Below, one piece after another: positions 4,929-39,080 of a stretch of 46,496 nt of DNA (within the stretch, counting starts at the first letter, position 1; each line of letters opens with the position of its first letter). The stretch is from Candidatus Peribacter sp. (GTDB lineage Bacteria; Patescibacteriota; Gracilibacteria; Peribacterales; Peribacteraceae). The position numbers and the translations under genes are program-made. Location of the stretch: positions 1-46,496 of the forward strand of contig JAUSKD010000018.1 in the NCBI GenBank assembly GCA_030647195.1, read 5' to 3'. Below the pieces are notes generated by a model, which worked only from the letters and a program-made list of their open reading frames with translations, did no database searches and was not told the origin of the DNA.

Positions 4929-5528
4929 TCACAACTTCAACTCCCCCACTTCGATCATCTGCAATACCCGCGGGTACCATTCTTTCTCCAATTCCTGTAC
5001 GCGCTTCTGCAGCGACTCGGGAGTATCGCCGGGGAGCACAGGGCATTCCTTCTGCAAGAGAACCCGGCCGGTATCCACGCCCTCGTCCATCAGATGGATA
5101 CTGACGCCGCTCTCGCTATCACCCGCGGTCAGCACCGCATCGTGCACATGATGGCCGTACATCCCCTTGCCGCCGTGCTTGGGCAGGAGTGATGGGTGCA
5201 CGTTGATGATCCGGTTCTTCCACGTCGCAATAAACCAGGGCGTGAAGATGAACATCCAGCCCAACGCCGCAATGACCGTCTGCTTGTCCGCCCCCAGAGA
5301 CAAGATGGCTTCGTGCACAAGGAAATCAAACTCCTCGCGGGTCTGACCCTTCACACGTTCGACAATCGTGTACGGGAGCCCGGCTGCCTTCGCCTTGTCG
5401 ATGCACGCCTTGTCCGGACTGTCCGTCACAAGACCGAGACATTGCGCCGTGAGCTCTCCGCGCTTCTGCGCATCGATAACGGCCTGGAATGTCGTGCCGC
5501 GGGAGGAGGAGAGGACGACGAAATTCAC
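4929..5528 (-). CDS. purN: Phosphoribosylglycinamide formyltransferase
   Basis: PurN transfers a formyl group from 10-formyl-tetrahydrofolate to GAR in purine synthesis. The family catalytic residues are visible: Asn and His in INVHPSLLPKHGGKGMYG, and Asp in MDEGVDTG. Length (199 aa from this start) fits the family. The frame also has an ATG at 5547-5549, but the GTG at 5526-5528 (VNFVVLSSSRG) fits the usual PurN N-terminus better. A promoter with TACAAT 6 nt before the GTG would start transcription at that codon. The upstream ATG lies inside a palindromic element, which probably arrived later. The canonical glycine-rich SGxGSN loop is SSSRGTT here. It follows carA. Confidence 0.9.
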   Translation of the reverse strand: MNFVVLSSSRGTTFQAVIDAQKRGELTAQCLGLVTDSPDKACIDKAKAAGLPYTIVERVKGQTREEFDFLVHEAILSLGADKQTVIAALGWMFIFTPWFIATWKNRIINVHPSLLPKHGGKGMYGHHVHDAVLTAGDSESGVSIHLMDEGVDTGRVLLQKECPVLPGDTPESLQKRVQELEKEWYPRVLQMIEVGELKL

Positions 5529-5534
5529 GGTAGC

Positions 5535-5564
5535 ATTGTAGTTTGTCATGGTGAGCTCTGTCGA
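5535..5564 (-). promoter_or_regulatory. purN promoter whose -35 lies in a palindromic element
   Basis: The minus strand has TCGACA (plus 5559-5564), 18 nt, TACAAT (plus 5535-5540), then 6 nt to GTG at 5528. The -35 hexamer belongs to the palindromic element copy B; the -10 box lies outside it. Confidence 0.65.
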
Positions 5565-5609: not shown

Positions 5610-6704
5610 CTACCCCAGCACCTTCACAAATTCATCAAACAGATAATTCGCATCCTCCGGCCCGGGCGTCGCCTCGGGATGAAACTGTACCGAGAAAAAC
5701 CTGCCCGACTCGTGCCGGATGCCCTCCACCGTTCCGTCATTGGCATTGGTAAACCAGATGTGCCACCCCTTGGGTAGCTGGTCCGGCTTCACGGCAAAGC
5801 CGTGGTTCTGCGACGTGATGATGCACTTCTTCGTCGGCTTGCCCTGCGCATCGTGCTCGATGCACGGCTGGTTCACGCCGCGGTGGCCGTACTTGAGCTT
5901 GAAGGTATCGCCGCCGATGGCGAGTGCGAGCAGCTGATTGCCGAGACAAATGCCGAAGGTGGGCAGGTTCTGCTTCAGGCTCCACTGGATCTGCCGGATC
6001 GTCGCTACGCAGCTCTTGGGATCGCCGGGACCGTTACTGATGAAGACCCCGTCGAACTTGAGCGGCGACGATGCGAGATCATAATCCCACGGCACACGGT
6101 GGACCGTGACTCCCCTCTTGAGAAAGCTCCTGAGGATATTGTTCTTGATGCCGCAGTCGAAGACGATGACCGATTTGCCGATGGCGTTCTCTTTGGGCTC
6201 ATAGGTCATCGGCTCTTTGCAGCTCACCTCCGCGACGAGGTTCTTCGTATTCGGATCCTCGATTGTTTTGCTCTCCGTGCCTTTCTGCGAAATTCTTCCG
6301 AGCATCACCCCATGCTCCCGGAGCTTCTTCGTGAGGGCGCGCGTATCCACCCCGGTGATGGCGGGGATCTTGTGATGCTCCAGCCACCTCTTGAGCGAAC
6401 TGGCCGCGGAGTGATGGCTGAAGTGCTCGCTGCCCTGCGAAATGATGACCCCGCGCACATGAATGTGTTCGCTCTCCATATTCTGCGCAAACCCGTATTC
6501 GTTCTTCTCTTCCGTCGGCACGCCGTAGTTGCCGATAAGCGGGTACGTAAATACGAGGATCTGCCCCTCGTAGCTGGGATCCGTCAGGCTCTCGACATAC
6601 CCGGCCATCCCTGTGTTGAAGACGACCTCTCCGTCAGCATCCACCGGTGCACCAAACGACTCGCCGGAGAAGACCGTACCATCAGCGAGAATAAGGGAAC
6701 CCAT
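5610..6704 (-). CDS. carA: Carbamoyl-phosphate synthase, small (glutaminase) subunit
   Basis: This 364-aa protein fits CarA in length and layout. The N-terminal CPSase domain starts LILADGTVFSGESFGA and has VFNTGMAGYVESLTDPSY at about 28-45. The C-terminal class I glutamine amidotransferase domain has the nucleophile Cys in FGICLGNQ (about 247-254) and the catalytic His and Glu in VQFHPEATPGP. It releases ammonia from glutamine for the large subunit CarB, which is not in the window, and feeds pyrimidine and arginine synthesis. No Shine-Dalgarno sequence precedes the ATG; TACTCT lies 8 nt upstream on the minus strand and may be a -10 box. purN follows after copy B of the palindromic element. 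Confidence 0.93.
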   Translation of the reverse strand: MGSLILADGTVFSGESFGAPVDADGEVVFNTGMAGYVESLTDPSYEGQILVFTYPLIGNYGVPTEEKNEYGFAQNMESEHIHVRGVIISQGSEHFSHHSAASSLKRWLEHHKIPAITGVDTRALTKKLREHGVMLGRISQKGTESKTIEDPNTKNLVAEVSCKEPMTYEPKENAIGKSVIVFDCGIKNNILRSFLKRGVTVHRVPWDYDLASSPLKFDGVFISNGPGDPKSCVATIRQIQWSLKQNLPTFGICLGNQLLALAIGGDTFKLKYGHRGVNQPCIEHDAQGKPTKKCIITSQNHGFAVKPDQLPKGWHIWFTNANDGTVEGIRHESGRFFSVQFHPEATPGPEDANYLFDEFVKVLG

Positions 6705-6838: not shown

Positions 6839-7186
6839 TCAGGGCGCTGAAACGGCGGCTTTCACCCTGCCACTCCACCCCGGCCCCCACTCCTGACCAA
6901 GGAGACCGTAAATTTTCCGTTGCGTGGAATTCATGATCTTTCCGACCAAGCCAAACGGATACCCGACCACATCAATCCCTCTGTGGATGGCAGTGGACGT
7001 GCCCCCGACGACGGCGGGCGGCACGGCACCGATCGACGCGAGCAATCTGGAAAATGCGGTACCAAACGTGCCGATCATCTCACCCACCTGCCCCACAAAC
7101 CTCGGCCCGCCTTGCTTCAACGTCTCTGCGCGCTTGGCGGCGGCGGCTGGATCAATGGGCCGGAAGAGGTTGAGGGGGTTGAACAT
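6839..7186 (-). CDS. Small protein, last gene of the giant-protein operon
   Basis: This 115-aa protein starts MFNPLNLFRPIDPAAAAKRA. The ATG at 7184-7186 shares a base with the upstream TGA stop (TGATG), so translation is coupled to the gene before it. The middle (about 30-80) is rich in Gly, Ala, Ile and Val and may associate with membranes (MIGTFGTAFSRLLASIGAV and GIDVVGYPFGLVGKIM), but no segment is a clear transmembrane helix. The C-terminal part is basic. It shares the 'Phe-Gly-plus-amphipathic helix' look of the 290-aa protein upstream. Family unknown. A 134-nt gap without clear signals separates it from carA. Confidence 0.7.
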   Translation of the reverse strand: MFNPLNLFRPIDPAAAAKRAETLKQGGPRFVGQVGEMIGTFGTAFSRLLASIGAVPPAVVGGTSTAIHRGIDVVGYPFGLVGKIMNSTQRKIYGLLGQEWGPGWSGRVKAAVSAP

Positions 7187-8058
7187 CAAATAGGAGGAAC
7201 TGTGGGAATACCGCCTACCTTGGTAACGATTGCCGCAATGAGCTCGAGAATTTTGTTCACAATCCCTCCCGCAGCAGCGATTGTTCCGGCAGGATTGCTG
7301 GCCAATGCGGTGAGCATAATTGCAGCCACAGCAGTGCGAATTGGATGCTCCATTGCCCCCTTAGCCACAACGGCAGTGAGCTTAAAGGGATAGAGCGCCG
7401 CGGCCTTGAGGCCGATCACGCTCGCTGCTACGGGATTGGTGCCTGGCGGCAGCTTGAACTTGTAATTGATACCTTTCATGACATCGCGATGAAGCTCGAA
7501 AACCGTGGCATCAAGGCCACGATAGAGCTTGTCTCCGGAAAATTTGAGCGTATTGATGCCCGCCGCCCCCGCCCAACGGAACGGGAATGCGAGTGTTCTG
7601 AAAACGCTCTTTATTCCTTCAGTGGGCGCGCGAACAAACGTGTCCTTCACAACTTGACCGATACTAAGAGGCTGCTTCGTCATCTTGCTCCCGACATATC
7701 GCCCAATGCCCGCAGCGGCAAGCCCGGCAATGCCCAGAGGAGGAAGAGCGATGCCCAATGTGGTGAGGATGGCATTGCGCGTGTTCCTCATGCCCTCTCC
7801 AATGGTCGGCATCTGTACATACTGCGGGCCCTCTATAGGTGCCTCCGGTGACTCTGCTGGGGGAGGTGCTTCCACTTCCGGGATGGTATCTTTCACGGCA
7901 TCTTTCACTTTATCCGTCTCCTTTTTTACTTGATCTCCACCCTCTTTTTTTAGCTTTGCTTCGGGTTTTTCTTTGCCTGTTTCCGGAGTCTCCTTGGGAG
8001 CTTCGGGAACTGCGGTCTTTGACAGCAGTCGGGATTCTGCACAGGTAACTGTAGGCAT
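7186..8058 (-). CDS. Membrane-associated protein, unknown function
   Basis: This 290-aa protein starts MPTVTCAESRLLSK. The frame extends 21 codons upstream, but this ATG has the only strong Shine-Dalgarno sequence in the window, AGGAGG 4 nt upstream. Residues 15-85 are a charged, Lys/Glu/Pro-rich low-complexity region. Then come hydrophobic segments: about 92-121 (LTTLGIALPPLGIAGLAAAGIG) and about 235-280 (AVAAIMLTALASNPAG and a C-terminal Ile/Ala-rich helix). It is the third gene of a four-gene minus-strand run and overlaps the 115-aa gene by one base. Function is not recognised. Confidence 0.75.
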   Translation of the reverse strand: MPTVTCAESRLLSKTAVPEAPKETPETGKEKPEAKLKKEGGDQVKKETDKVKDAVKDTIPEVEAPPPAESPEAPIEGPQYVQMPTIGEGMRNTRNAILTTLGIALPPLGIAGLAAAGIGRYVGSKMTKQPLSIGQVVKDTFVRAPTEGIKSVFRTLAFPFRWAGAAGINTLKFSGDKLYRGLDATVFELHRDVMKGINYKFKLPPGTNPVAASVIGLKAAALYPFKLTAVVAKGAMEHPIRTAVAAIMLTALASNPAGTIAAAGGIVNKILELIAAIVTKVGGIPTVPPI

Positions 8059-8062
8059 GATT

Positions 8063-8068
8063 CCTCCT
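8063..8068 (-). promoter_or_regulatory. Canonical Shine-Dalgarno sequence (rare in this window)
   Basis: AGGAGG on the minus strand, 4 nt before the ATG at 8056-8058. It decides the start of the 290-aa gene and is the only perfect SD found before a called gene. Confidence 0.75.
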
Positions 8069-8127
8069 TGTGTGAGAGTGGTTTCTGCCGATTCTGAATG
8101 AATGAATTTTCGCATGAGCAAATGATG

Positions 8128-10698
8128 TTATTTTATGCCCAGCAGTCGTTTCACTGTGGCATAGCTGAACTTGGCAAGGGCAACACCACCAACGAGCACA
8201 CCGACGGTGGTCGGGGAAACGACAGCACCAACAGCAGGCACCTGTGCAGCGAGGTAAGCGGTGAGTCCATAAGCGGCCCCGCCTGCGAGTGTCGTGGCTG
8301 CAACGCCGCTCAATGCAATCTTGCCGATCTCTTTGGCCGGAGCAGCAGCGGCAGACCCAAGGGCACCACCCGCCTTTTTCACCCAACCTTCTCCTTTCCG
8401 TTCCTTCAGCTTCTTGAATGTCTGATGCACCTTCACACAGAACGCCCGTACGATCTCCATATTCTGCCCGACAGCCTCCGGGCCCATTGGGCGGTCTGGT
8501 TCTTTCGGCTTCCTTACACCTACATATTCCTGTTCTGCTTTTTCTGCAATTCCTCGCTGTCGTTCAATTTGCCCTCTTTCTGCGAGCCTTCTCCTTGATC
8601 TCTCGATATCAGACTGTAGTTTGCGTTTTCCTGCTTCAGAAGTATCTGGATCATTCACATCTTCCGGCATCCCGATCTTCTGTTCGGCAGCATGTAGCCG
8701 ATCTTCAATTTCGGTTCTCTGTTCTGGCTGCAATCCGGCAAGGGCTTCAATGGCCCCTTGCAGCCGCCGAATTTGCACCTTAAGGACTGGCCCACGTGCC
8801 TTTGCCCTTTCGCTTTCATCCTTTCTTATGGATTTCTCCTGCTGCTCAACAAGGGCCAGCTCATCCTGCAGTTGCTCCAGCTGCGACTGTTTTTGATGAA
8901 GTTCGGTCTCCAGAGCTTCCAGCCTCTGCGACTCTTTCTGAGCTTTTTCTTTGAGGCGAGTTTTCTCTTCTTCATCAACTTTTTTTTGTAGAGCCTTTCT
9001 ACGACCGAGCGTGTGCTGTACATGCGGCGCCGCTGCGAGGGCAAGATCCTGTTCTGTGCGGTATCGCCTGCGGTCAATAACCGCAGCCGGAATGACAATC
9101 ATCGGCAACCATCGCTTCTCTGAATCCGTGAGCTGGCTCTCTTCCGAGTATTCCATGAGAACATCTGGACGATACAGATCCCCCCCCTTCACATGTGCCG
9201 TTTCCGCGGAGAGGATTGGCTCCCCTCCCTTACCTTGTATTTCACCTTTGGCGGAAATCTCCAATCGCTGTGGTACCTTGCGCACAGTGCGGTACAACTG
9301 ACGAAGCCCGAATGCACCAGCACCAATGGCAAGCGGCAGTGGCGACCATGTCGCCACACTGAGAGCCGCAGCGGTCCCGAATGTAGCGCCGGTGATCTGC
9401 CCCTCTCGCTTATCGCGTGCATGATTTGCAAGCAACCGTCCGTAACACACACTGACCTGAAGTAAGTGATCAAGGGCGTCAGTGCTTCCTGCTTCAATCT
9501 GTTGATGAAAACCAGCAAGCTGTTGCCGTTCCTCATCTGTCACGCCCCGCACCCCCCTCGGAGGACTGACCTGCAATCCCTCATGTGCCTCACGGCAGAG
9601 TTGCCGAAGACGTGCAAAACAATATTTCGCATAGCGTTCGACTGAGCAGAGATAGGGCGTCTCAGAGGGCTTGGCTCTCTCAGAATTATGAAGAGCAATC
9701 ACAAGTGTATCTTCTCCCGGTTCATCCAGAAGATCTTTGTCTGCAGTCCACTGCCACTGCCTGATCTTGCCTGTGCAGTCTTTCATCCGTTGCTGCGCAC
9801 CTTCTCCTGCACCAAGAGATGCTTCAAATTCCCTATCCACTTTCGCTCCGTGTGCCAGCCATGCATGTGCCCTCCTCAACACCGGGATGGCAGCAGGCCA
9901 AGCAACCGAGATGCCAGGTAAGTACGAAGGTAACGCATTATTCAGAAGCGCAATCTGCGCGGCATCCGTGCCCATTGCCGCAGTCGTGCCCCAGAGTGTG
10001 AGGCCACCAGCGGCTGCGGGTCTTCCCACTTCATCCAATCCCACAAATTCCGGTTTTTCGCGCAGATCGCGATACCCCCTCAGAAATTCTCCGGACAATC
10101 TATCCTCCTGAGACATCCATGCGAATTTGTTCTGTATCCATTTCATGGCCCTTGCCCATCGTGAAGGAACTGGCGCATGAGGAGCTTCACCGGGAACGGG
10201 AGCGGGGGCGGCCGTCAGTTCTGGTGCTCCATCCGGGACTGCAGATGGCATCGAAGTGAGGACATTCCGCAGATGCTCTCGAGCTTGCTGTGCTTGCTCC
10301 ATAGTGAACGTACCTTCTGCTACGAGACGAGAAATCTCGAACTCCTGTCGGTCTGCCGGAAAAGCTTGGAGCATCACAAAAAGAAGCGCACGATTATCAA
10401 TCGACTCATCTGCTTTTTCAACAGGGCTTTCAGCATCGGCATTACTTGCACCAGCTATAGGACTATTCTCAGCAGGGACTCCGCCAGTTACAACACCACC
10501 GACATCTCCTCTTGTTCCTCCAAGAATCTCTTCCACGGGTTCCCCCTGTGACGGAGACAGTTCGAGACCCTCATCCAAATCTAATGGGGTCAATTCAAAA
10601 TCGCCCTCTGGGGCGCCCTCGCCTGGCGTCGAGTCATCACCATCCATTGGAAACAGTTCATCGTCACCGCCGTCAGGATTGCCTGGTACCGAAGACAT
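8128..10698 (-). CDS. 856-aa membrane and coiled-coil protein, unknown function
   Basis: The N-terminal ~130 residues are very acidic and Gly/Pro/Asp-rich. A helical region follows, then hydrophobic segments at about 230-265 (GGLTLWGTTAAMG through PGISVAWPAAIPVL) and about 430-460 (GTAAALSVATWSPLPLAIGAGAFG). A long charged coiled coil rich in Glu, Lys, Arg and Gln spans about 540-740 (ELHQKQSQLEQLQDELALVE). A C-terminal Ala/Gly/Val-rich hydrophobic region at about 790-845 ends KRLLGIK. The gene starts 33 nt after the 2006-aa gene and is followed 69 nt later by the 290-aa gene. It may be an inner-membrane scaffold, but that is inference; no known domain is recognised. Confidence 0.8.
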   Translation of the reverse strand: MSSVPGNPDGGDDELFPMDGDDSTPGEGAPEGDFELTPLDLDEGLELSPSQGEPVEEILGGTRGDVGGVVTGGVPAENSPIAGASNADAESPVEKADESIDNRALLFVMLQAFPADRQEFEISRLVAEGTFTMEQAQQAREHLRNVLTSMPSAVPDGAPELTAAPAPVPGEAPHAPVPSRWARAMKWIQNKFAWMSQEDRLSGEFLRGYRDLREKPEFVGLDEVGRPAAAGGLTLWGTTAAMGTDAAQIALLNNALPSYLPGISVAWPAAIPVLRRAHAWLAHGAKVDREFEASLGAGEGAQQRMKDCTGKIRQWQWTADKDLLDEPGEDTLVIALHNSERAKPSETPYLCSVERYAKYCFARLRQLCREAHEGLQVSPPRGVRGVTDEERQQLAGFHQQIEAGSTDALDHLLQVSVCYGRLLANHARDKREGQITGATFGTAAALSVATWSPLPLAIGAGAFGLRQLYRTVRKVPQRLEISAKGEIQGKGGEPILSAETAHVKGGDLYRPDVLMEYSEESQLTDSEKRWLPMIVIPAAVIDRRRYRTEQDLALAAAPHVQHTLGRRKALQKKVDEEEKTRLKEKAQKESQRLEALETELHQKQSQLEQLQDELALVEQQEKSIRKDESERAKARGPVLKVQIRRLQGAIEALAGLQPEQRTEIEDRLHAAEQKIGMPEDVNDPDTSEAGKRKLQSDIERSRRRLAERGQIERQRGIAEKAEQEYVGVRKPKEPDRPMGPEAVGQNMEIVRAFCVKVHQTFKKLKERKGEGWVKKAGGALGSAAAAPAKEIGKIALSGVAATTLAGGAAYGLTAYLAAQVPAVGAVVSPTTVGVLVGGVALAKFSYATVKRLLGIK

Positions 10699-10703
10699 AA
10701 AAT

Positions 10704-10731
10704 ATTATGAATTAAATTAAATAAAAGTCAA
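10704..10731 (-). promoter_or_regulatory. Candidate internal promoter for the 856-aa gene
   Basis: TTGACT (plus 10726-10731), 16 nt, CATAAT (plus 10704-10709), then 5 nt to the ATG at 10698. The AT-rich gap contrasts with the GC-rich surroundings. Read-through from the upstream gene is also possible. Confidence 0.5.
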
Positions 10732-13700
10732 TTACGGCATCCATGAGCGATTTTCGAGCTCTTTTAGAAGAGCTGTGATACGTGGCGTAATTGCCCCAAG
10801 AAATACTGCCTCCGAAATATCCCTTCCCATTCTCATGGTTGCACCCGGCATTCTCCGACCATTGTAGGAATAGAGACTGTCTCCGGGGACAGTAAAACCT
10901 TTCCCTTTGAGATATTCCTTATAAGCATCAATCCCACCCGCATCCTTATACTTCCCTCCATAGAGAACAAATTCCAAAGCCATAGAGACAAGATCCGTAT
11001 ACTGATCAGGAGTTGCTATTGTTAGTCCATAGAGTGCCAACAGACTCTGCTCAAATTTACTGATTCTTTCAGCCTTATCTATGTTTGGAATCTGCTCCAC
11101 GACTTTCTGAAGCAGACCCGTTGCAGATCCGTCCAAGAGACACTGTAGTCGTTTGGCATGGACGGGCCCCTGTGTCTCACGCGCCTTTGCAAATGTCTTA
11201 AGGAGCTTGCCGGCTCTGCGCTCGACAATTGCCGGATCATCGGCACCCGCGATAATTGCAGCAACAATAACCTCGCCGTACGTCTTTGCGTCAGCTTCCG
11301 GTACACCGAGAAGGTATTGCACACACGCTGCCCACTCACGCTCACCAGCATCGGCAGAAAATACAGGAGCGGCAGGAACTACCTCCTTGAATCTCTTTCG
11401 AAGCTCTTGCCTCTTTCCTTCCACAACACCCTCACCTCCCAGAGCACGAACAAGATCCGCCGGATTTGGGGTATTGGCGGGATTGATTAATCTATCCACT
11501 TCACTCTCCGCTACACGGGGCCTGTCGGGAGGTGCGGAGGGACCGGAAGGAGCGGCAGGCGCAGCGGCGGCTCTGGCAGCTTCCTCCGCAGCTTTTGCCA
11601 CAGTGTCTGGCACGGGCGAAATCGCAGAAGGAGTGAATTCCTTTACAAGATTCGGGAACTTCTTCACGTGATCAACAGATGGCGCGATGCCACGTCGACC
11701 GTAGAGTTCGAGACGCATTTGCTTGGCTTGCGCCTTGAATAGCTCCAGATCCACCGGTCTCTTTTGAGCACTCAGAATGGTTTCCAGAACCACATTCGTC
11801 ACAAGCGCGTTCAGGTAGGTCTCGTATTGCTTGTATTTCTCGCTGTCTTTTCCACCGAATTCCTTTTCCGCCTCACTGAGGAATCGAGCACGGTAGGCAT
11901 CCACTTGCGGATCCAGAAACTCACTCGCGCGACCTCGGAAAGGCAAGACATAGGAAATTACGGAAAGCCAACCAACTACGGTGTTTTCTTTTCTGGCAGC
12001 CTGCATCGCTCCCACAAAGGTTCGCTCATCCCCCACCATCAAAGGCATCTGGAGCACGGTGTTCGTGTTGTAGTGACTCAGAAGATAATTGTAGGCATCG
12101 AGTGTTTCCTTCGGGAGCGTCTTCACATAATCCTCGAACTTCTGATCTGCGGTCGGCCATGAGACGGCCAGCCGTTCTGTCAGTTTGAAATTCGGATCAT
12201 TGCGTTTTTCAAACAGCTTCACGTGTCTGCAGGCCACAAGGTAGGTAAATACCTGCTTCTTCAGCAAATCAAACCAGAGCATCCGCTCGATGGGATCTGT
12301 AACCTCGGTTTCGAAGTTCGTTTTTCCGCTCAACTTCTTGAGCCAGCCCTCAAGGAGAACCCCGAACGTATCGGGAACCTCCGCGAACGCGCTCACTTGG
12401 TCTGTGAGTGATTTCTGTAATTCTGAGACCTTGGCAAGAGACTCCACATGCGCTGGCAGCGTGAAAGCGGTATCCAGATCCAAATCAAGAGCACTCTTTG
12501 CACTTTCGACAAAATAATTGAGAACAGGGCCCGTTACTCCATTGGAGAGAAGCATAAGATATGTGCTCTTCGCTGCTTCCCTTGCTCCTTCTACTCCTCT
12601 GCCAGTTGTATCAAACATCCATTCACAGGCTTCGGGGGTTTTCTGAATAAAGAATATTTTTGCATCAGCACATTTTTGAGCAATAAGTTTCCAACCAGCA
12701 GCAAAATCCTCTTTTGATTCAGCCCACAATTTGGTCTTCGTAAGTTTTGCCCAATCCCATACTGAGTCTGCCGATGCAAACACCATCCCTTTCCCCGCTT
12801 CCCACATCTCCGGCACCTTATGCACCCCCTGCTTCATCATCACCCACGCCTGCACGCCGTACTTCTTGACGAGTGCTGAGGCTTCGTCGTAGGTGTAACC
12901 GAACATATCCGCGGCGGCCTCGAGGTAGCTTCGATTCTCCAGCATCTCCTTCGTCGGCATCTGGCACTCCGACATGATCACCTCGAACATCGTCGCCGGC
13001 TTGAGGGAGGTCGCACGATTCGCGACATAGCGTCGCTGGATCAGATCCGCGCCCTGCTCGGCATTGGTATCGGTATTGCCGCCGGCAAGTCCGTTGATGC
13101 GGGCCACATCGCCGCACAGCGCCTCGAAGGCGTAGTACGCGACCTCACAGGCCTTTTCGCGCGAGCCCGTGGCACCGAGGTTGTCTTCGATATCCGAAAC
13201 GCGCAGTGACTTGGGAGCGCCGAGCGAGAACTGCTTGCCCCCGCCGGACTTTACGGCATTGCGCCACGCGAGCAGCTCTTGCACCGCAACGGGATTCTTC
13301 TCATTCATCAGGACGCGGATGGCCGCCTGCCCTGACGGCTGCATCAGCACCGCGTAACGCTTGTCGAGCGCGGCGCCGCGCCGGCGGAACGCCTCCAACG
13401 GGGAGCTGCGGTCCTCCTTATTCTTAAAGCGAAGGTTCTCACCCAGGAGGTCTCGGCCCGTCCGCTGCTTCACGATGGCATTCACACCAAGGAGGATCGG
13501 CAGGCCCAGAAGGACGAACTTGCCCTTCTTGCTCTTCCACGCCTCCTTGATCATCCAGTATGCGGCGAAGGCGATGGCGATCACCTCGGCCTTGCCGATC
13601 ATGTCGGTGTTCCACAGATCCTTCATGGATTCAATGCCGGTACGCAGCCATCGGTCGACAGGATTCGTGAATTCGTCTTCATCCTCGATCTGCTCTTTGG

Positions 13701-16700
13701 CTTTGATACTGCCGCGCATCTCGAAGAGGAGTCGCTGCTGGAACGCATTGACCGCCAAACGGGCATCGATCACCGAGACTTTTTCGGTGCGGCCCTGATA
13801 CTCATAAGTCTGTTCCTCGCCCGTGACGAATGCCTCGAGGAAAGCCGCCTTCGCGGGAGAGTCCTCGAGCGCGATCTCGAGCGATGCACGCACCTTTTCC
13901 GGCGGATCCATGATCCAGCGGCCGACGCCTGCGGCGAGGTTCAGTGCGGGATTCGCCGGATCTTTGGCCTGCCGCAGAAGATCGAGGGCACGGGGATTGA
14001 AGTTGAGCCCACGCTGCTTATAAGGAGAGAGAATATCGCGCCCCGCCTGTGTTTCGACGATGGCACGCGCATCGATGGTGCGCAGAAACGCTTTCTTGTC
14101 TGCGGCATTCATCTCGGCCATCTGTTCATCCACGAATGTGTCCTGCTGCTCGGGCGTGTGAAGGGTCTTCGCCTCTTGCAAGAGTTCCAAAGCCGCCTTC
14201 AGGCCCGCTTCGGGATCCGTCTTGGTGCCCTTGTGCATGGCCATCCAGAGCGTCAATTGCCGAAGCCTGCGTGAGCACAAATTCCAACCGAGAACATTCA
14301 ATCGGCCGATCACATACTGGTTGGCCATGAGGAGCGCCTCCGCCTGCACATTGTGCTCCGACGGAGAGACCGCGGGATCTCCGCGGAGTGCCTTCAACTG
14401 GGCTTCTCTGCGGCTATGCAGTCCGGTTTCCGTCGTCTCGAGGAACCGCTGCGCTCCCGAGGATGTCTTGAGCAGCTTCTCGAGCGAGGCCTTGCCGTCC
14501 TTCAGGGCTGCCTGCTGATTCAGCAGTGTGAGGAGGTCGGCATCGTGTTCCGGATCCCAGAAATTCTTGCGGATGCCCGCGATGTAATCCCACCACATGC
14601 TTCCGCCCGCTTTGGCGAGCTTCCAGAATTCGGAGGCATGGAATGCGACGGATTCCTTCCACGTGACCTCATGCACCTTCGCCGTGCGCATCTGCTTGTA
14701 CAGGTCCATCGGCTTCGCTGTGACCGGGAACTCGCCCAAGAGCTGAATGAGCGCAAACTTGTCCACAAGGAACGAATTATCGGCCTGTTGCTTGAGTGGC
14801 CCCCCCGCGGCCTTGAACTCCGCAAGCTTCTCCTTCGCTTTCCGGTCCGCCTCCGTTCCATTCCCGTCGAAAAAGAGGAACGTGAGGTATTCGAGCAGCA
14901 ACGTACCATCGTTCTTAAGCCGGAAACCAGTGCCGGAACCCGTCGGCTCCGTCACGCTCTCGACGATTGCCGTAGCACTTTCTCTTCCGAGGAAGCCTGC
15001 TTCGTCGACATCTGTTTCCACTTTGATTTCCCCGATCTCCTTTTTCAGCAAGTCAAGTTTCGCACTCGCCTCGATGTCATAGTATCCCGCACGCGACGAC
15101 GCTTTGATGACGTTCTTGGTGACGAGGGAATCAAGATATCGCTGCACCGCTTCCGGTGAGGGTGCGTACATGCCCCTCTTCATGATCTCCGAAACGAGTG
15201 CTTTGAGAGAATCGATTTTGACCGAACCTTCTCCGATGGCTGAGCCTGCTTTCGGCTCAAATATTGCATCAACCTTCGGGGTAGCTGCAGGTATGCCGTA
15301 CAGCGCCTCCTTCTTCTTTTTCCCGAACTGTTCCATCTGCGCGATGGAGATGAGCACGCCCGGGCTAGGACGGTAGTTGCCGTCCTCCAGCATCTTCACA
15401 ACCGTATCCGGCATGCGGGCACGAAGCGCCAGCGCCGAGAGCGAAACGCCTGTGGGATTATCGATCTTCACGCCTTCGCTCTTCAGGTACTCCTCCGCCT
15501 TGCCGGTATTCCAGAGACTCAAAAGGTCGCGGGAGAAGTCCTCGATCGAAACAGTGGCGGACGGGGTGGTCTTCTTCAATTCTGTTTCCGACTTCGCGCG
15601 GTCCGCCTCCACCGCATCCCTTCCGCCTTTGAGGATGGCGAGGATGAGCTTCTTGATCTCGTTTGCGTCTTTGATCTGGTACTTCTTCCGGATCCGCTCC
15701 ACCTGCGAAGCCTCCGTCAGTTCCACACTGGTCTTGAGCCCGAGTGCTTCCTCGATTTTCTGTTTCTGACCATCCGTCAGCTTGGTCTTCTTCAGAATTT
15801 CCAGCCGCTGGATCAGCGCATCGAGACGGAACTTTCCGTTGCGCTCAAGCGACAGGTGAATCAGCGCCTCCTGGTCGGTACCGCCGAGGCGGTCCAAGTA
15901 GCGCAGGCGCTCCTGAAACGCATCCGCGATGAGCTTCTGCTGATTCATCTGAAGCTCCGACAACTTGGCATCGATGGCCCGCATGGCGGCCTCCACCTTC
16001 TTGCGCTCATCCGGATTCAAAAGCTCGATGCCGCCGGTCTCGCGAACGATCTTGAGTAATGCCGAGCGCCGTGCAGTCGGCTCGGTGGCAATGGTGTACG
16101 GGTTGAGCTTGGCTTCGGGTATGTCGACTGCCTTGAATTTGTCCGTCCACTTCTTCGCGTTATTGACTTCGTCATCGGTGGCCCAGAGAATGTCTTTCAT
16201 CAGATCGACCAATTGATCGAACCGCTTCTTGAACGTATCGACGTTCGCCTTCTTCGTGAGTATCCCGCTCAGCTCAGCATCAAATCCGGGAAAATCCCCC
16301 ACCCCTCCGGCATCTTTGTAGGCTTTCTGCAGTTTTCGGAGGTCGTCGATGGTCGCCTTCAGGATCTCTGCGCACTTTTTCGCCAGATCCGTGGATTTGT
16401 CCTTGGCGGCATTGATGGCCTGCCCCTCGCCGGTGAATATGTCGTGACTCTTCTGCAGGAACGACAGGGCAATGGCATTCAGCCACTTCTTCGAGTCTTT
16501 GCCCGCAAGCAATTCCACTTGCGAGGCGATCATGTCCAGCGTTTCCTCATTTGCGAGCATCTCTTTGATTTTTGGATCATTCAGCGTCGTTGCGGCGTCA
16601 CGGAGCGCCTTCTTGGCTTCGGCGAATCCGGGGCCGCGCTTCTCTGTATCCAGCCGCATCGCATCGCCGCTGCGCTCCGGCGTCTTGTCGTAAATCAGCC

Positions 16701-16752
16701 GCGCTTCGCGCAGTCCCTCAGACCCGAAATCCGGAAAGAGTTTTTGTGTCAT
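10732..16752 (-). CDS. Giant 2006-aa protein with one central membrane segment, unknown function
   Basis: The protein starts MTQKLFPDFGSEGLREARLIY; an in-frame TTG three codons upstream is less likely. It is mostly charged and helical. There are no cysteine clusters and no nucleotide-binding or protease motif that I can see. Around residues 1055-1095 two adjacent hydrophobic stretches (AEVIAIAFAAYWMIKEAW and FVLLGLPILLGVNAIV) could form a hairpin or a single pass. An Ala/Pro-rich linker (AAPAAPSGPSAPPDRP) lies near 1740, before a conserved-looking helical C-terminal domain. The promoter at 16764-16792 leaves a leader of about 5 nt. It heads an operon with the 856-, 290- and 115-aa genes. Size and neighbours suggest a scaffold of a cell-envelope machine, but this is inference only. 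Confidence 0.85.
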   Translation of the reverse strand: MTQKLFPDFGSEGLREARLIYDKTPERSGDAMRLDTEKRGPGFAEAKKALRDAATTLNDPKIKEMLANEETLDMIASQVELLAGKDSKKWLNAIALSFLQKSHDIFTGEGQAINAAKDKSTDLAKKCAEILKATIDDLRKLQKAYKDAGGVGDFPGFDAELSGILTKKANVDTFKKRFDQLVDLMKDILWATDDEVNNAKKWTDKFKAVDIPEAKLNPYTIATEPTARRSALLKIVRETGGIELLNPDERKKVEAAMRAIDAKLSELQMNQQKLIADAFQERLRYLDRLGGTDQEALIHLSLERNGKFRLDALIQRLEILKKTKLTDGQKQKIEEALGLKTSVELTEASQVERIRKKYQIKDANEIKKLILAILKGGRDAVEADRAKSETELKKTTPSATVSIEDFSRDLLSLWNTGKAEEYLKSEGVKIDNPTGVSLSALALRARMPDTVVKMLEDGNYRPSPGVLISIAQMEQFGKKKKEALYGIPAATPKVDAIFEPKAGSAIGEGSVKIDSLKALVSEIMKRGMYAPSPEAVQRYLDSLVTKNVIKASSRAGYYDIEASAKLDLLKKEIGEIKVETDVDEAGFLGRESATAIVESVTEPTGSGTGFRLKNDGTLLLEYLTFLFFDGNGTEADRKAKEKLAEFKAAGGPLKQQADNSFLVDKFALIQLLGEFPVTAKPMDLYKQMRTAKVHEVTWKESVAFHASEFWKLAKAGGSMWWDYIAGIRKNFWDPEHDADLLTLLNQQAALKDGKASLEKLLKTSSGAQRFLETTETGLHSRREAQLKALRGDPAVSPSEHNVQAEALLMANQYVIGRLNVLGWNLCSRRLRQLTLWMAMHKGTKTDPEAGLKAALELLQEAKTLHTPEQQDTFVDEQMAEMNAADKKAFLRTIDARAIVETQAGRDILSPYKQRGLNFNPRALDLLRQAKDPANPALNLAAGVGRWIMDPPEKVRASLEIALEDSPAKAAFLEAFVTGEEQTYEYQGRTEKVSVIDARLAVNAFQQRLLFEMRGSIKAKEQIEDEDEFTNPVDRWLRTGIESMKDLWNTDMIGKAEVIAIAFAAYWMIKEAWKSKKGKFVLLGLPILLGVNAIVKQRTGRDLLGENLRFKNKEDRSSPLEAFRRRGAALDKRYAVLMQPSGQAAIRVLMNEKNPVAVQELLAWRNAVKSGGGKQFSLGAPKSLRVSDIEDNLGATGSREKACEVAYYAFEALCGDVARINGLAGGNTDTNAEQGADLIQRRYVANRATSLKPATMFEVIMSECQMPTKEMLENRSYLEAAADMFGYTYDEASALVKKYGVQAWVMMKQGVHKVPEMWEAGKGMVFASADSVWDWAKLTKTKLWAESKEDFAAGWKLIAQKCADAKIFFIQKTPEACEWMFDTTGRGVEGAREAAKSTYLMLLSNGVTGPVLNYFVESAKSALDLDLDTAFTLPAHVESLAKVSELQKSLTDQVSAFAEVPDTFGVLLEGWLKKLSGKTNFETEVTDPIERMLWFDLLKKQVFTYLVACRHVKLFEKRNDPNFKLTERLAVSWPTADQKFEDYVKTLPKETLDAYNYLLSHYNTNTVLQMPLMVGDERTFVGAMQAARKENTVVGWLSVISYVLPFRGRASEFLDPQVDAYRARFLSEAEKEFGGKDSEKYKQYETYLNALVTNVVLETILSAQKRPVDLELFKAQAKQMRLELYGRRGIAPSVDHVKKFPNLVKEFTPSAISPVPDTVAKAAEEAARAAAAPAAPSGPSAPPDRPRVAESEVDRLINPANTPNPADLVRALGGEGVVEGKRQELRKRFKEVVPAAPVFSADAGEREWAACVQYLLGVPEADAKTYGEVIVAAIIAGADDPAIVERRAGKLLKTFAKARETQGPVHAKRLQCLLDGSATGLLQKVVEQIPNIDKAERISKFEQSLLALYGLTIATPDQYTDLVSMALEFVLYGGKYKDAGGIDAYKEYLKGKGFTVPGDSLYSYNGRRMPGATMRMGRDISEAVFLGAITPRITALLKELENRSWMP

Positions 16753-16763
16753 AAAATCCAACT

Positions 16764-16792
16764 ATTGTACCAAAAATCGGGTTTTTGTTCAA
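16764..16792 (-). promoter_or_regulatory. Strong promoter of the giant-protein operon
   Basis: The minus strand reads TTGAAC (plus 16787-16792), 17 nt, TACAAT (plus 16764-16769) with an extended TGG before it. The -10 box is 11 nt from the ATG at 16752. The 3' half closely resembles the promoter of the pilin-like operon at 39062-39070. Confidence 0.8.
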
Positions 16793-16798: not shown

Positions 16799-19090
16799 TT
16801 AAAGACGTCGCTTAAGCCAAATCAGGGCGACCCCCACGCTCGAAAGCGCCCCCAGCGCGCTCACTTCGGGCACGGGGGACTTTTCCGCGACAGGAGCTGC
16901 AGCGGTGAGCGTGGCCGGCAGTTCGGACAGGGCGAAGGACATGACGAGGGAACCAGAGGAATGAAAGGAAATAGAGGAAAGAGAAGAAAGAGAGGATCGG
17001 GAAGCCACGACGTAGCGCGTTCGCGAAAAGGCAGGCGTGGTCGCGACGATGGATTTCTTTATGACTGCGACAGAGGGGGCAGGTGACAACACCGTTGTCT
17101 GACAAGCATTCGGTAACTCCGGAGTGGGGTCGGAACTTTTCCATTCCCCATCGCAGAAACTGAGCGAAATTCCTGCTTTGAGTTTCGGGATGGAAACGTG
17201 ATCCGACCAGGAAGCATCCGGAGCGATCAGCCACACGTCATCGCCGGAATCATTGAGCTGAAGCTTGGTCCCGCCGCCGGGAAACAGCCGGTACTCCCCT
17301 GCTCCGATCCGGGAATCCGAAGGGAGCTTATATGGCTTACTGCCGCCATCTTTCAGGTCATCGAGGATCCAGCCTGCAAGGGAAATAGCGTGATCGGTCG
17401 GATTATGTAACTCGATCCACTCGTCGCCCGTCATCTGCACTTCACTCAAGGTCACCCCCGTCTCGACGCGGACTTCCTCCTGCATGCTCATCAGCACGAT
17501 ACTGGAAGAGCTTGATGACGCGCTTGAGCGGGAATGAGAGGAGACCGAGGATGCCGAGGATGCAGATGAGGCCGATGAACGAACGGCTGCTTCCTCCTCC
17601 GGAAGCACGGTGACTGAGAGCTGGGCGACGGAAATGCCGCCGCAAAAATCCCGAACGGTCAGCCGCACGCTGAAATCCCCGGGATCGGAAAACGTGTGCG
17701 ATGGCGGATTGCAGGCACTACTCACCGCATCATCACCCAAGTCCCACGCGCAGCTTGCCGAAGCCAAAGATCCGGCTCCCACGGCGGCCTCAAGATTGAG
17801 CGTCACATGTTCCGTTCCCTGAACGTACGCGCTGCCGACCGACGCCGATCCGGCATCCTGAATGACGATGCGCGGGGCGAGTGATCCTGCGGTATTCGGT
17901 CTGCCTTCACTCGGCACGCAGAACGCACGCAGCTGACCGGGAGCATTGGGATCCCGCCCGAAACTTACCTCCTCCGCGGTCAGCGGATACTCAAACGCAT
18001 CGATGAGCGCAGACCCGTTCATCAGGCTCACACGCTCACCACTGTTACTCAACGGAAGACCGGTGACGGATTTGCGGAAGGATACATACTCGCCTGCCGC
18101 GAGAAGGAAACCCGAACCGGAACGCGGAAGAATGCGATAGACGTGGCTTCCGGCACCGAGTGACCATCCCGCGATGTCCGTGGAATCCGCTCCCAGATTG
18201 GCGATTTCGATCCACTCATCCGTATCCGCGCCGATGGGGTTGGCGAGGACCTCGGTGATGAAGACGGAAAGAGAGGATGCCGAAGAGACAGAGGATGCCG
18301 ACGAAGCAGAGGATGCAGAAGATGCCGACGAGACCGAGGATGCAAACGAAATCGAAGAGGATGACTCGCTGCTCACAGAGGAACCGGAGCCGGAGGATGA
18401 AGAGGAGGAATCCGAAGATGCCGACGAGACCGAGGAGGCAACGGAAGGCGCACTGACGCTCCCGATATATCCCGGCGTGCCGAAGATGGGCGATCCATCT
18501 TTGAATCCGGATGATGCGGTGACCGTCCGCCAGTTTTCCGGAACGTTGCCCGGAGCATGGAGATCGATACGCTCCATGCTGGCCTTGGTGCCTCCCGACG
18601 GATTGGCTCCCGCAAGCGGATTCCCGACTCCGTCATCCACCTCGTCGCGCACAGAGCCTACGGCATCGCGGAGTCTCAGGAGCAACTTGGTATTCGGCAG
18701 ACTCATGGACGACGTCGTGATCCACGGTTCCGACAGAAGCCTCGAAGAAGCGGCGACATAGTGACTGAGCACACGCACGTCCCCGGCCGGGATCAGTGCG
18801 CCCGTCGCAAATGTAACAATCACCGCCTCCTCACCCGTGCTCTTGAGACCCGTGAATGTCCAACCGGAGAGGTCGCAGTCGCTCGTTCCCGCGCACGCGA
18901 TCTCCACCCACTCATCGGCAGTCGAGAGATCGGATCCCATCCACATCACTTCGCTGATGACCGCCGAACCGATCGAAGTGCTGTCATCCGCAAACGCCCG
19001 ATGCATCGCCTGCCCGGGCAAGAGGCAAAGCAGCATTCCTGCCGGAAGCAGGTATGTGAGAAGCCGGTACAGAAACCTGTTCGGTTCCAA
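16799..19090 (-). CDS. Secreted lamin-tail-domain protein with Ser-rich linkers
   Basis: This 763-aa protein has an N-terminal signal peptide (about 1-35, ending near AFADD) and a C-terminal anchor of hydrophobic helix plus KRRL. Three lamin-tail domains are visible from their EWIE signature: about 40-200 (DEWVEIACAG), 273-395 (DEWIEIANLG) and 540-665 (DEWIELHNP). A PKD-like domain (CAWDLGDD, HTFSDPGDF) lies at about 405-497. Long Ser/Ala linkers join them at about 225-272 and 503-530. Such proteins are exported and often surface-bound, possibly to DNA or polysaccharide. The start is a TTG, chosen because no in-frame ATG precedes the signal peptide and an in-frame TGA lies just upstream. No clear promoter was found. 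Confidence 0.85.
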   Translation of the reverse strand: MEPNRFLYRLLTYLLPAGMLLCLLPGQAMHRAFADDSTSIGSAVISEVMWMGSDLSTADEWVEIACAGTSDCDLSGWTFTGLKSTGEEAVIVTFATGALIPAGDVRVLSHYVAASSRLLSEPWITTSSMSLPNTKLLLRLRDAVGSVRDEVDDGVGNPLAGANPSGGTKASMERIDLHAPGNVPENWRTVTASSGFKDGSPIFGTPGYIGSVSAPSVASSVSSASSDSSSSSSGSGSSVSSESSSSISFASSVSSASSASSASSASSVSSASSLSVFITEVLANPIGADTDEWIEIANLGADSTDIAGWSLGAGSHVYRILPRSGSGFLLAAGEYVSFRKSVTGLPLSNSGERVSLMNGSALIDAFEYPLTAEEVSFGRDPNAPGQLRAFCVPSEGRPNTAGSLAPRIVIQDAGSASVGSAYVQGTEHVTLNLEAAVGAGSLASASCAWDLGDDAVSSACNPPSHTFSDPGDFSVRLTVRDFCGGISVAQLSVTVLPEEEAAVRSSASSASSASSVSSHSRSSASSSSSSIVLMSMQEEVRVETGVTLSEVQMTGDEWIELHNPTDHAISLAGWILDDLKDGGSKPYKLPSDSRIGAGEYRLFPGGGTKLQLNDSGDDVWLIAPDASWSDHVSIPKLKAGISLSFCDGEWKSSDPTPELPNACQTTVLSPAPSVAVIKKSIVATTPAFSRTRYVVASRSSLSSLSSISFHSSGSLVMSFALSELPATLTAAAPVAEKSPVPEVSALGALSSVGVALIWLKRRL

Positions 19091-19193
19091 AGCACACCAT
19101 TGCAGCGCAATTCATGGATCAGAGCAGCACTCCCGAGTAAACGAAACAGAGCCGGTGTCTTTTTTTTGGCTTCTGTAAAACAAAAAACAAGTT

Positions 19194-19433
19194 CTATGCC
19201 CCCCCAGAACGTGCAGGCATCAGCCCGTGAATATTCCTTCTTGTTCGTCCCCGCTCTGCGTCAGTTCTTTTCTGTGTCGCCATCAAGAAGTCGTATTCAA
19301 CCCGAGGTTTCTCGGCAGCGAGCGACCGATTTGGCGGTAACCCATAACTATCGTAGATCGGATTACCGAATCGTGTGAACCCTACGACTTTTGCGCACTC
19401 TGGCATTGGCAGTTCGGAGTTATTTCGACGCAT
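19194..19433 (-). CDS. Candidate small protein, 79 aa, unknown function
   Basis: An ATG at 19431-19433 opens a 79-codon frame starting MRRNNSELPMPECAKVVGF and ending in TAG. A good promoter (TTGACT-16-TACAAT) ends 8 nt before this ATG, the leaderless layout seen for many other genes here, and this is the main support. The frame contains FGNPIYDSYGLPPNRS and is basic at its C-terminus. Codon use is less GC-biased at third positions than in neighbouring genes. It could instead be a transcribed RNA or a chance frame. No family recognised. Confidence 0.4.
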   Translation of the reverse strand: MRRNNSELPMPECAKVVGFTRFGNPIYDSYGLPPNRSLAAEKPRVEYDFLMATQKRTDAERGRTRRNIHGLMPARSGGA

Positions 19434-19780
19434 GTAACCGCATTGTATGCATGCATCACAATCAGTCAAGAAAAGATCTTTCTATCCTAAAGCCCATATT
19501 CGTCAACAGAACCTTTTGGCTTCCGGACTGCACGGTGGCTTCACAAAGCGCCGACTTTCTCTCTTCTGCCATGAGCCAAAATCCGATAGAATAGTGGCGA
19601 GCTCACCTATGAGCTTTTTCTCTTCGTTACAAGCATCTTCCCCCTCTGCTCCCTTCCTTTCGAACTCATTCCTGTGACGCATCCATCTCTATTCGCGGCA
19701 ACTCCCCTCTTTATTGAGAGGAGAGACAGGTAAGAAGCGAAAGGCCGAGCAGGGATTTTTTTCCTGTTCCCCTTCGATCC
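19434..19780. other. Gene-poor gap before rny
   Basis: Apart from the promoter at 19442-19469, this stretch holds no gene I can support. A possible plus-strand -10 (TAGAAT near 19585) has only a weak -35. A small hairpin, CTCCCCTC/GAGAGGAG with one mismatch, lies at 19702-19723. No RNA gene fold was recognised. The rny promoter is unresolved. Confidence 0.4.
19442..19469 (-). promoter_or_regulatory. Promoter in front of the 79-aa frame
   Basis: TTGACT (plus 19464-19469), 16 nt, TACAAT (plus 19442-19447) on the minus strand, 8 nt before ATG at 19433. Confidence 0.6.
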
Positions 19781-21337
19781 ATGGACAACACCATTGTATT
19801 CCTCGCACTCCTCGGAGGTGCCGGTCTCGGTGTGCTCGCCGGCTGGTTCCTGTTCAACAAAGGCAAACACGTCAGCGCGACCCTGCAGGCAGACATCAGC
19901 AAAAAGGAGCAGGAAGTCGAGAGGTTGAACCTGCGCATCGCGCAGGCGCAGAGCCAGATCAAGACGGCCGAGGCCGAGGCGCGCGTCGCGGCGAAAGAGC
20001 TCCTCTCGGAGGCGAAAGCGCAGGCGGCAGAGATGGAAGCGAAGCTGGAGAAAGAGCAGGGCCGTATCGAGGAGAAAGAGAAAACGCTCGATGAGAAAGT
20101 CCGCGAGCTGGAGCGTCAGCGCGCGAACATTGCGAAGCAGGAGCAGGAAGTTGTCTCGCTCAAGACCGAATTGACCGCCGCCAGTGCCTCGCACCGCGAA
20201 GCGCTGGAAAAAGTTTCCAAGCTGACGCAGGAGCAGGCGAAGGAACAGCTGAAAGAGGAGCTCGTACACGAGTTCTCATCCTTCTATGCCGGGCAGGCCA
20301 AGCTGGTCAAAGAGCAATTCAAGGAAGAGGCCGAAGAGGAGGCCAAGAACCTGCTGGCCGAAGCCATGCAGCGCTACGCATCAGAGGTCGCGACGGAATC
20401 CACGGCCACCGTGGTGCAGCTGCCGTCCGATGACGTGAAAGGCAAGATCATCGGCAAGGAGGGACGCAACATCACCGCGTTCGAAGCGGCCACGGGCGTC
20501 GACATCATCATCGACGACACGCCCGGTGCCATCGTGATCTCGGGCTACGATCTGGCCCGGCGCTACGTGGCCAAGCTGGCCATGGAGAAACTGATCAAGG
20601 ACGGGCGCATCCAGCCGGCACGCATCGAGGAGGTCGTGGCAAAGATGAAAGAGGAAGTCGGCAAGATGATGCTGGAATTCGGCAAGCGCGCCGCAGAAGA
20701 GCTGAGCATCACCAACTATCCGCAGGACCTGCTCAAGATCATCGGGCGACTCCGCTTCCGCACCAGCTACGGACAGAACGTGCTCAAGCACTCGCTCGAG
20801 ATGGCCAATATCGGCCGCATGCTGGCCGAAGAGATCGGCGCCGACGCCAAGGTGGTGACGGAAGGCTGTCTGCTGCACGACATCGGCAAGGCGCTCGATC
20901 ACGAGATCGCCGGCACGCACGTCGAGATCGGCCTCGAGATCGCCCGCAAGTTCAAGGTCCGCCCCGAGGTGTTGCACTGCATCGCCTCGCACCACGGCGA
21001 TACGCCCATCGAGTCGCCCGAAGCCTTCATCGTGGCGGCGGCGGATGCGATCTCGGGCGCACGTCCGGGTGCGCGGCGCGAATCCTTCGAGGCCTACGTG
21101 CGCCGCCTGAAGGAGCTGGAAGAAGTGGCCAAGGGTTTCGAGGGCGTGAAGCGCGCCTTTGCCATCTCGGCCGGCCGCGAGGTGCGCGTGTACGTGGATA
21201 CGGAAAAGGTGGACGACCTGGGTCAGGCACGATTGGCCAAAGACATCGCCGAGAAAATCGAGAAGGAGCTGACGTATCCGGGCGTCATCAAAGTGAATGT
21301 GATCCGGGAACGGAGAATCGAAGAAGTGGCGAAGTGA
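19781..21337 (+). CDS. rny: Ribonuclease Y
   Basis: RNase Y is a membrane-anchored endoribonuclease that starts mRNA decay. The 518-aa protein has the full family layout: an N-terminal membrane helix (about 5-25), a long coiled coil (about 35-200), a KH domain with GKIIGKEGRNI (about 222-232), and an HD domain with the metal-binding LLHDIGKALDHE (about 364-375) followed by a conserved C-terminal domain (ADAISGARPGARRE). Length matches the usual ~520 aa. The ATG has no Shine-Dalgarno sequence; a C/T-rich stretch (CCTGTTCCCCTTCGATCC) precedes it. The paired 9-nt repeats at 21338-21490 lie directly after the stop. No neighbouring gene is obviously co-transcribed. Confidence 0.97.
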   Translation: MDNTIVFLALLGGAGLGVLAGWFLFNKGKHVSATLQADISKKEQEVERLNLRIAQAQSQIKTAEAEARVAAKELLSEAKAQAAEMEAKLEKEQGRIEEKEKTLDEKVRELERQRANIAKQEQEVVSLKTELTAASASHREALEKVSKLTQEQAKEQLKEELVHEFSSFYAGQAKLVKEQFKEEAEEEAKNLLAEAMQRYASEVATESTATVVQLPSDDVKGKIIGKEGRNITAFEAATGVDIIIDDTPGAIVISGYDLARRYVAKLAMEKLIKDGRIQPARIEEVVAKMKEEVGKMMLEFGKRAAEELSITNYPQDLLKIIGRLRFRTSYGQNVLKHSLEMANIGRMLAEEIGADAKVVTEGCLLHDIGKALDHEIAGTHVEIGLEIARKFKVRPEVLHCIASHHGDTPIESPEAFIVAAADAISGARPGARRESFEAYVRRLKELEEVAKGFEGVKRAFAISAGREVRVYVDTEKVDDLGQARLAKDIAEKIEKELTYPGVIKVNVIRERRIEEVAK

Positions 21338-27092: not shown

Positions 27093-27117
27093 TTCCCCTT
27101 TTCCCTCAAGTGTAACG

Positions 27118-38169: not shown

Positions 38170-38280
38170 CAGGGAAACGTGTGTTTCGGGAATAGGGAAT
38201 TAGGGAACTCGGGGGCTCAGGAAGGAGGCATACGAAAAAAACCTGGTTCCCTAGTTCCCTCATCCCTAGTTCCCTATCGT
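38170..38280. repeat. Paired inverted tandem repeats between the BI-1 and bL32-like genes
   Basis: The left arm, with GGGAATAGGGAATTAGGGAAC (about 38189-38212), pairs with the right arm of GTTCCCTAGTTCCCTCATCCC (about 38252-38280) with further TTCCCTA units. The arms are built from 7-nt units, GGGAATA/TTCCCTA type. Likely terminator or RNA-end structure. Confidence 0.8.
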
Positions 38281-38963
38281 CGGTTACCCGAGAGCGCGAG
38301 CATGAAACGGAGGATATACAGGAACAGATTGAAAATATCGAGGTAGAGGCTCAAGGCCAGCAAGAAAGGATTGGCGCCGAGGCGACCGAGGGCCTGCACG
38401 CGCTGTACGTCATAGGCGGTGAATGCCGCGAAGAGCACCACCCCGATGCCCGAGATCACCACTTCTGCCCCGCCGGTGCGAAGTTGAGGGACGAAGAGTT
38501 GGAGGAGCGCGATCACGATGAGCCCGATCAACCCCATGAAGAGCATCCTCCCCATTCCCGACAGATCCGCCTTTGTCGTAAGTGCGAAGACCGCGGAGCC
38601 CGCCGCCATGAAGATCGTGGCGAGCGATGCATTGAGCAGAATGGATGCACCGTTCACATACCCCACAAGCACGTAGAGAATGTACGGCGTCACCGTGAGA
38701 CCGGAGAGCAGGGGGAATATCGCGAACAGGATCATGTTGAGAGGCGATGAGCGCACCCACATCCCTGAAGTAAAGATCAGAATGAGCTCGGCAATAAGAA
38801 ACACGATCTGCACCCCCGAACCGACCAGAATCCGCGCATAGGCAAGCCCCAGAAAGATCCCCACAGCCGTCAGAGCGAGGGCGAGGGCGAAGAGGCCGTA
38901 CACCTTGGCTTCGGAGGAGGAATCGAGGACGACCGGCCGACTGCGGATGGAGGTGAATGCCAT
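38274..38963 (-). CDS. Bax-inhibitor-1/YccA family membrane protein
   Basis: The open frame extends far upstream, but the ATG at 38961-38963 is preferred: it gives a 229-aa protein of BI-1 length. A promoter (TTGCAT-16-TATCAT) ends 8 nt before it, and the upstream extension is antisense to the pilin-like gene. Seven hydrophobic helices are visible (about 22-45, 50-68, 75-93, 95-125, 138-158, 165-185, 200-225). The last part contains FTAYDVQRV and the C-terminal LSLYLDIFNLFLYILR, which match the family's helix 6-7 region with its conserved Asp. Family members are thought to be pH-sensitive calcium leak channels; the role here is unknown. It is divergently transcribed from the pilin-like genes. 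Confidence 0.9.
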   Translation of the reverse strand: MAFTSIRSRPVVLDSSSEAKVYGLFALALALTAVGIFLGLAYARILVGSGVQIVFLIAELILIFTSGMWVRSSPLNMILFAIFPLLSGLTVTPYILYVLVGYVNGASILLNASLATIFMAAGSAVFALTTKADLSGMGRMLFMGLIGLIVIALLQLFVPQLRTGGAEVVISGIGVVLFAAFTAYDVQRVQALGRLGANPFLLALSLYLDIFNLFLYILRFMLALSGNRR

Positions 38964-38971
38964 AGATCCCC

Positions 38972-38999
38972 ATGATAGAGAGGGGGCGGAGGAATGCAA
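38972..38999 (-). promoter_or_regulatory. Promoter of the BI-1 family gene (leaderless)
   Basis: TTGCAT (plus 38994-38999), 16 nt, TATCAT (plus 38972-38977), 8 nt before ATG at 38963. Confidence 0.65.
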
Positions 39000-39070: not shown

Positions 39071-39080
39071 ACATGGATTT

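Follow-up and report, generated by a model that had tools for sequence, protein, structure and literature searches.

What four adjacent genes, whose products match no known family, do for a bacterium of the Candidatus Peribacter lineage is the question raised by one strand of a 46,496-nt stretch of its DNA (the window), which belongs to a genome of 1.35 Mb that is 98.6% complete. The genes encode a giant protein (P0001) and three smaller ones, P2, P3 and P4, referred to together as P0001–P0004. Our tentative answer, to which we grant somewhat less than an even chance, is a membrane-associated complex around a giant helical scaffold, encoded at an allele-exchange locus and probably engaged in conflict or host interaction.

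Gene layout, promoters and flanking genes

Read along the minus strand, the gene order is exported LTD/PKD protein, giant, P2, P3, P4, carA and purN (Table 1). The first-pass annotation had described proteins of 2006, 856, 290 and 115 aa on one strand, with short gaps and overlaps and a strong promoter, and the coordinates (16752–6839) bear this out: 33 nt separate giant from P2 and 69 nt P2 from P3, while the P3 stop and P4 start overlap by 1 nt (TGATG). The promoter (TTGAAC-17-TACAAT) is likewise real. It lies within the 46 nt that separate the LTD stop from the giant ATG, which follows TACAAT after 11 nt, and it is kept in relatives (G001, G002, G034, G029, G194, G136 and G204), even where the giant is only 22–26% identical; in G030 a similar arrangement with a weaker –35 precedes the giant. 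Similar promoter-like sites also precede P2 in G001, G030 and G194. Because P2 has such a site of its own, the operon is not simply one transcript, and giant and P2 probably each have a transcription start of their own. The start of P3 was chosen on the basis of a strong AAGGAGG ribosome-binding site ahead of it, a kind of site that the giant and P2 starts lack. At 16764–16752, 10704–10698 and about 42790–42771 of the window, some genes lack a ribosome-binding site and begin 5–15 nt downstream of a TATAAT-like box, so that a subset of genes may have leaderless transcripts; upstream regions rich in C and T are found at many window genes.

Table 1. Positions in the window of the four genes, their promoters, parts of the giant and the flanking genes.
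Feature	Position	Strand	Basis or remark
Giant protein (P0001), 2006 aa	10732..16752	-	open reading frame
P2, 856 aa	8128..10698	-	acidic N-terminus, hydrophobic segments, coiled coil
P3, 290 aa	7186..8058	-	Lys/Glu-rich N-terminus, then hydrophobic segments
P4, 115 aa	6839..7186	-	Gly/Ala-rich, amphipathic, N-terminal NPLNLFRP
Promoter of giant, TTGAAC-17-TACAAT	16764..16792	-	almost leaderless; kept in relatives
P2 promoter-like site, TTGACT-16-CATAAT	10704..10731	-	5 nt before P2 ATG
Best conserved giant part, aa 1015-1285	12898..13710	-	mean column identity 50% (alignment of 12 giants)
Variable C-terminal part of giant, from about aa 1316	10732..12806	-	DNA similarity to sister G002 stops at 12806
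LTD/PKD protein, exported, fixed left flank	16799..19090	-	Pfam LTD 2.3e-33, PKD; paired with rny across family
RNase Y (rny), fixed left flank	19781..21337	+	Pfam RNase_Y_N, KH, HD; in 56/58 relatives
carA, fixed right flank	5610..6704	-	TIGR01368 4.5e-137
purN, fixed right flank	4929..5549	-	TIGR00639 2.8e-45

On the left, the divergent pair of rny and the Ser-rich LTD/PKD exported protein (16799–21337) is kept through the family and also occurs in at least three genomes from other families of the class. Beyond it, two very large cysteine-rich proteins with 6.9% and 4.7% Cys are encoded on the plus strand (21630–27092 and 26947–33597), one with a Golvesin C-terminal domain and the other with FG-GAP repeats. 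As listed, the second gene begins inside the first, and its real start is probably later. Further along are a Bax1-I membrane protein (38274–39905, minus strand), with an additional N-terminal region of ~330 aa in which no domain was recognised, and a protein with a T4SS_pilin domain match (39887–40693, plus strand; Pfam PF18895, 5e-13), no further secretion gene being recognised among the window proteins searched.

Sequence relatives and exchange at the site

The first-pass annotation could name no domain in any of the four proteins, and in profile searches against Pfam, PHROGs, NCBIfam and PADLOC all four likewise returned sub-threshold helix or coiled-coil noise only; matches named SNAP (E 0.005), CENP-Q, Exo70 and the like were discounted as noise from helices. 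Giant and P2 had no match above threshold among PDB sequences, and the giant had none by tblastn in 50,697 phage records and none in plasmid records and viral contigs. A single-protein scan of contigs with the giant gave one named relative, Candidatus Peregrinibacteria CG1_02_54_53. Neither sequence nor structure searches revealed homology to a known machine, and a prior description of this four-gene system was not found in the literature. CPR genomes commonly contain orphan genes, which makes the absence of matches alone weak evidence. The apparent novelty of the system means absence of matches in the libraries searched, and the interest of the locus rests on linkage, a fixed address and swapping.

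The giant was found in 8 of the 58 genomes of the relatives set by single-protein search (its own genome included) and in 12 of 74 family genomes by profile search. Across 288 class and 380 phylum genomes, every clear match lay inside the family, and one marginal match (E 6e-4) lay outside it. Of the 74 genomes, 12 have P3 and 10 have P2, all of them giant carriers except G003, where 12 kb are masked ahead of P2-P3-carA; that genome is a probable carrier, and its reading as a loss was rejected on the same grounds. P3 accompanies the giant wherever contigs allow, and is probably missing from G029 because the contig ends there. Among giants, P2 is found only with one of the two C-terminal subtypes (A) described below. 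Relatives of P4 were found in G001 (38%) and G002 (28%), with small ORFs at the P4 position in G030, G136 and G194 and a P4-sized ORF in G034, in which the operon is spread over two contigs in the order P2-P3-small ORF, followed by an ORF of 423 aa where carA would stand. The genes are thus not scattered in relatives: the giant, P3 and the readable P4 stand together before carA. Values of dN/dS range overall from 0.13 to 0.25, with 0.17–0.22 for conserved parts of the giant (G000, the window's own genome, against G001 and G002) and 0.13–0.24 for giant and P2 of G136/G204; for the giant taken by itself the range is 0.13–0.22. From these values it follows that the genes are maintained. A 2006-codon open frame, conservation across genera and this dN/dS range together exceed what chance would give. 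The four genes are a real, conserved unit under purifying selection, confined to the family as far as sampled. Two relatives of P2 (L068:7516-10395 and L024:1-2382) carry a weak excisionase/MerR-like helix-turn-helix near the N-terminus (E 0.013 and 0.0012, under the Pfam cut-offs), a hint that these relatives may bind DNA.

The giant itself is a mosaic. Compared with that of the sister genome G002, it is 73–96% identical over most of aa 1–1315, apart from a variable stretch around 480–700; identity then falls from about 92% to about 25%. In the DNA, similarity between the two genomes ends at 12806 and returns at 6761. The identity drop at aa ~1316 recurs against G001 and G020, giving three close-relative pairs in all. 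C-termini fall into subtype A, accompanied by P2 (G000, G001, G034, G029, G030, G136, G204 and G194), and subtype B, without P2 (G002, G020 and G026), and the two are intermixed among genomes whose RNase Y is 83–95% identical. Blocks are replaced that include the C-terminal third of the giant together with P2/P3, while promoter and flanks stay fixed. Comparison did not support the type-B C-terminus as a fusion with P2, and type-A and type-B C-termini could not be united as one family, sharing no more than one brief stretch of similarity (E 0.003).

Anchored on the flanks, the same site was read in other family genomes, where rny-LTD and carA-purN enclose giants, other large genes or nothing, depending on the genome. 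Other large unannotated genes, all in the same direction, occupy it in, for example, G004, G024, G017, G033, G014 and G028, and it is essentially empty in G009 and G012, the LTD gene of the latter being followed directly by a carA-type gene. G004, of the same genus as the window, retains 48 bp with the giant's promoter at 98% identity, followed by an unrelated 428-aa gene, and in the DNA comparison with G000 only this promoter is kept ahead of the first gene. An S3-type gene is present at the site in 4 of the 74 genomes, with no overlap with the 12 giant carriers; mutual exclusion was counted for this pair only. Comparison with the giant core by hhalign gave probabilities of 62–71% for S2 and S3 genes (94.5% for S2 to S3), hinting that both may be remote relatives of that core. 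Within one genus, G136 and G204 (L066/L067) have the giant operon, and G008 (L061) has only genes of 422 and 233 aa at the site. Fixed flanks, exclusive contents and sharp recombination boundaries make this an allele-exchange locus. Capsule or O-antigen clusters are allele-exchange loci that encode surface-sugar enzymes, and share with it the fixed flanks, mutually exclusive contents and recombination within the block; the locus described here differs in encoding large proteins in which neither enzyme domains nor export signals were recognised.

Predicted structure and other large proteins

The best conserved part of the giant comprises a hydrophobic helical hairpin (about 1048–1098) and a helical domain (about 1115–1265). 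An AlphaFold model of aa 690–1400, built with 12 sequences, is almost all helix (mean pLDDT 64, pTM 0.46), and one of aa 1015–1285 reaches pLDDT 72 and pTM 0.62, with about 80–94 within the domain. Searches of the PDB with hairpin and domain (aa 1015–1285) gave no E below 1 in Foldseek and no Z of 5 or more in VIA-align; the core (aa 690–1400) had no reliable match in the PDB with either program, and viral proteins, searched with the core only, gave no reliable structural match. The helical domain, modelled with confidence and lacking a clear structural counterpart, is a worthwhile subject for structural study.

All 12 aligned giants have a hydrophobic hairpin, but a Kyte-Doolittle value of 1.6 is reached in only a few of them, and the basic loop of the hairpin leaves the membrane topology ambiguous. 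P3 has several hydrophobic stretches and P4 one weak stretch only; a clear coiled coil is likely in P2 only, at about 560–650. The membrane-plus-coiled-coil layout first attributed to all four proteins therefore applies in part only, the giant being mostly helical and globular with one borderline hairpin. Assessed by simple hydropathy rather than a dedicated signal-peptide predictor, none of P0001–P0004 has a hydrophobic N-terminus.

Very large proteins of other kinds are known from related bacteria. Candidatus Peribacter riflensis has large extracellular Cys-rich proteins that account for much of its strain variation (PMC4736985). These belong to the same bacterial group as the giant and are also very large, but they are exported and contain about 7% Cys, whereas the giant lacks a signal peptide and is 0.50% Cys (0.70% in P2). 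The giant falls outside the known class of large exported Peribacteria proteins, to which the pair at 21630–33597 of the window does belong. Vampirococcus lugosii, like the window's source a CPR bacterium with giants, encodes giant membrane proteins of 1392–4163 aa, whose place in the membrane is inferred (PMC8080830); most of these carry known domains for adhesion or interaction (PKD, DUF11, integrin, fibronectin), none of which was found in the four proteins here.

Candidate roles of the proposed complex

Having no signal peptide, the proteins would stay inside the cell, where hydrophobic segments of the giant, P2 and P3 may attach them to the cytoplasmic membrane from within. In the giant, the conserved middle would then form the assembly core, and the variable C-terminal part, with P2, the end that confers specificity or recognises a partner. 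A core that is kept while the ends are swapped would most likely reflect conflict with a changing partner, with phages or mobile DNA as first candidates and a host cell as second; such a role is ranked first because exchange behind a fixed promoter resembles conflict loci. Several points speak against a membrane-associated conflict complex. Membrane attachment is weak, since the strength of the hairpin is borderline; P0001–P0004 have no PADLOC match and their neighbours are housekeeping genes; and drift with recombination also yields variable loci without conflict. The alignment of the giant, moreover, holds 12 sequences only. We regard as possible, and on balance unlikely, the more far-reaching proposal of an intracellular, membrane-attached giant-protein machine for conflict or delivery that is unique to this Peribacteria family, with a conserved core, one promoter and one address, and with the recognition end and partners exchanged between lineages.

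Just as doubtful in our estimate is an internal scaffold of the envelope or cytoplasm, in which giant and partners would build a lattice or organelle beneath the membrane and variability would be neutral. The large helical products, their hydrophobic segments and the coiled coil, a conserved gene order and purifying selection are all consistent with it; most of the family, however, lacks the operon and has other genes or nothing at the site, and replacement between sister species is block-wise. The envelope or cytoplasmic structure proposed in the first-pass annotation thus survives in part: no known machine was found and the genes are linked, but a unit that is patchy and replaced in blocks is unlike the usual core structural part.

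A delivery or channel complex of giant helical proteins whose amphipathic hairpins would cross a target membrane, akin to the T7 ejectosome (gp14, gp15 and gp16) and directed by a CPR epibiont at its host cell, appears less probable still. Its general make-up would be the same, with a giant, a large protein and small hydrophobic partners, and both the ejectosome and tape-measure proteins share with this locus giant helical proteins with hydrophobic segments. T7 core proteins appear in weak structural rows (Z 3.6–4.4 over 64–70 residues), phage tape-measure and internal virion proteins are among the top viral rows (E above 0.1), and life attached to a host is documented for a CPR relative (PMC8080830). 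All T7 and tape-measure scores, however, are at noise level for helical models, and no sequence relation was found, phage homologues of the giant included. No virion genes lie at the locus, whose chromosomal neighbours are rny, the LTD protein gene, carA and purN, and no export route is known for the proteins. A decayed or domesticated prophage or mobile-element segment would suit the patchy distribution and the large uncharacterised helical proteins typical of phage genes, but is very improbable given that the giant matched nothing significantly in PHROGs, phage records, plasmid records or viral contigs, that site and flanks are the same across genera, that the frames are intact and that dN/dS is well below 1.

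CPR bacteria have very small genomes, and 10 kb spent on four proteins without known relatives therefore points to something costly and useful. Large genes that are swapped, altered or replaced by different ones at a single site suggest a membrane-associated complex under pressure to change. The locus amounts to a natural experiment, in which promoter and flanks are fixed and contents exchanged, and a conserved core is joined to a variable end. If the complex is a machine for conflict or host interaction, it would reveal where the adaptive effort of these bacteria goes, and would offer a testable handle on a family without genetics.
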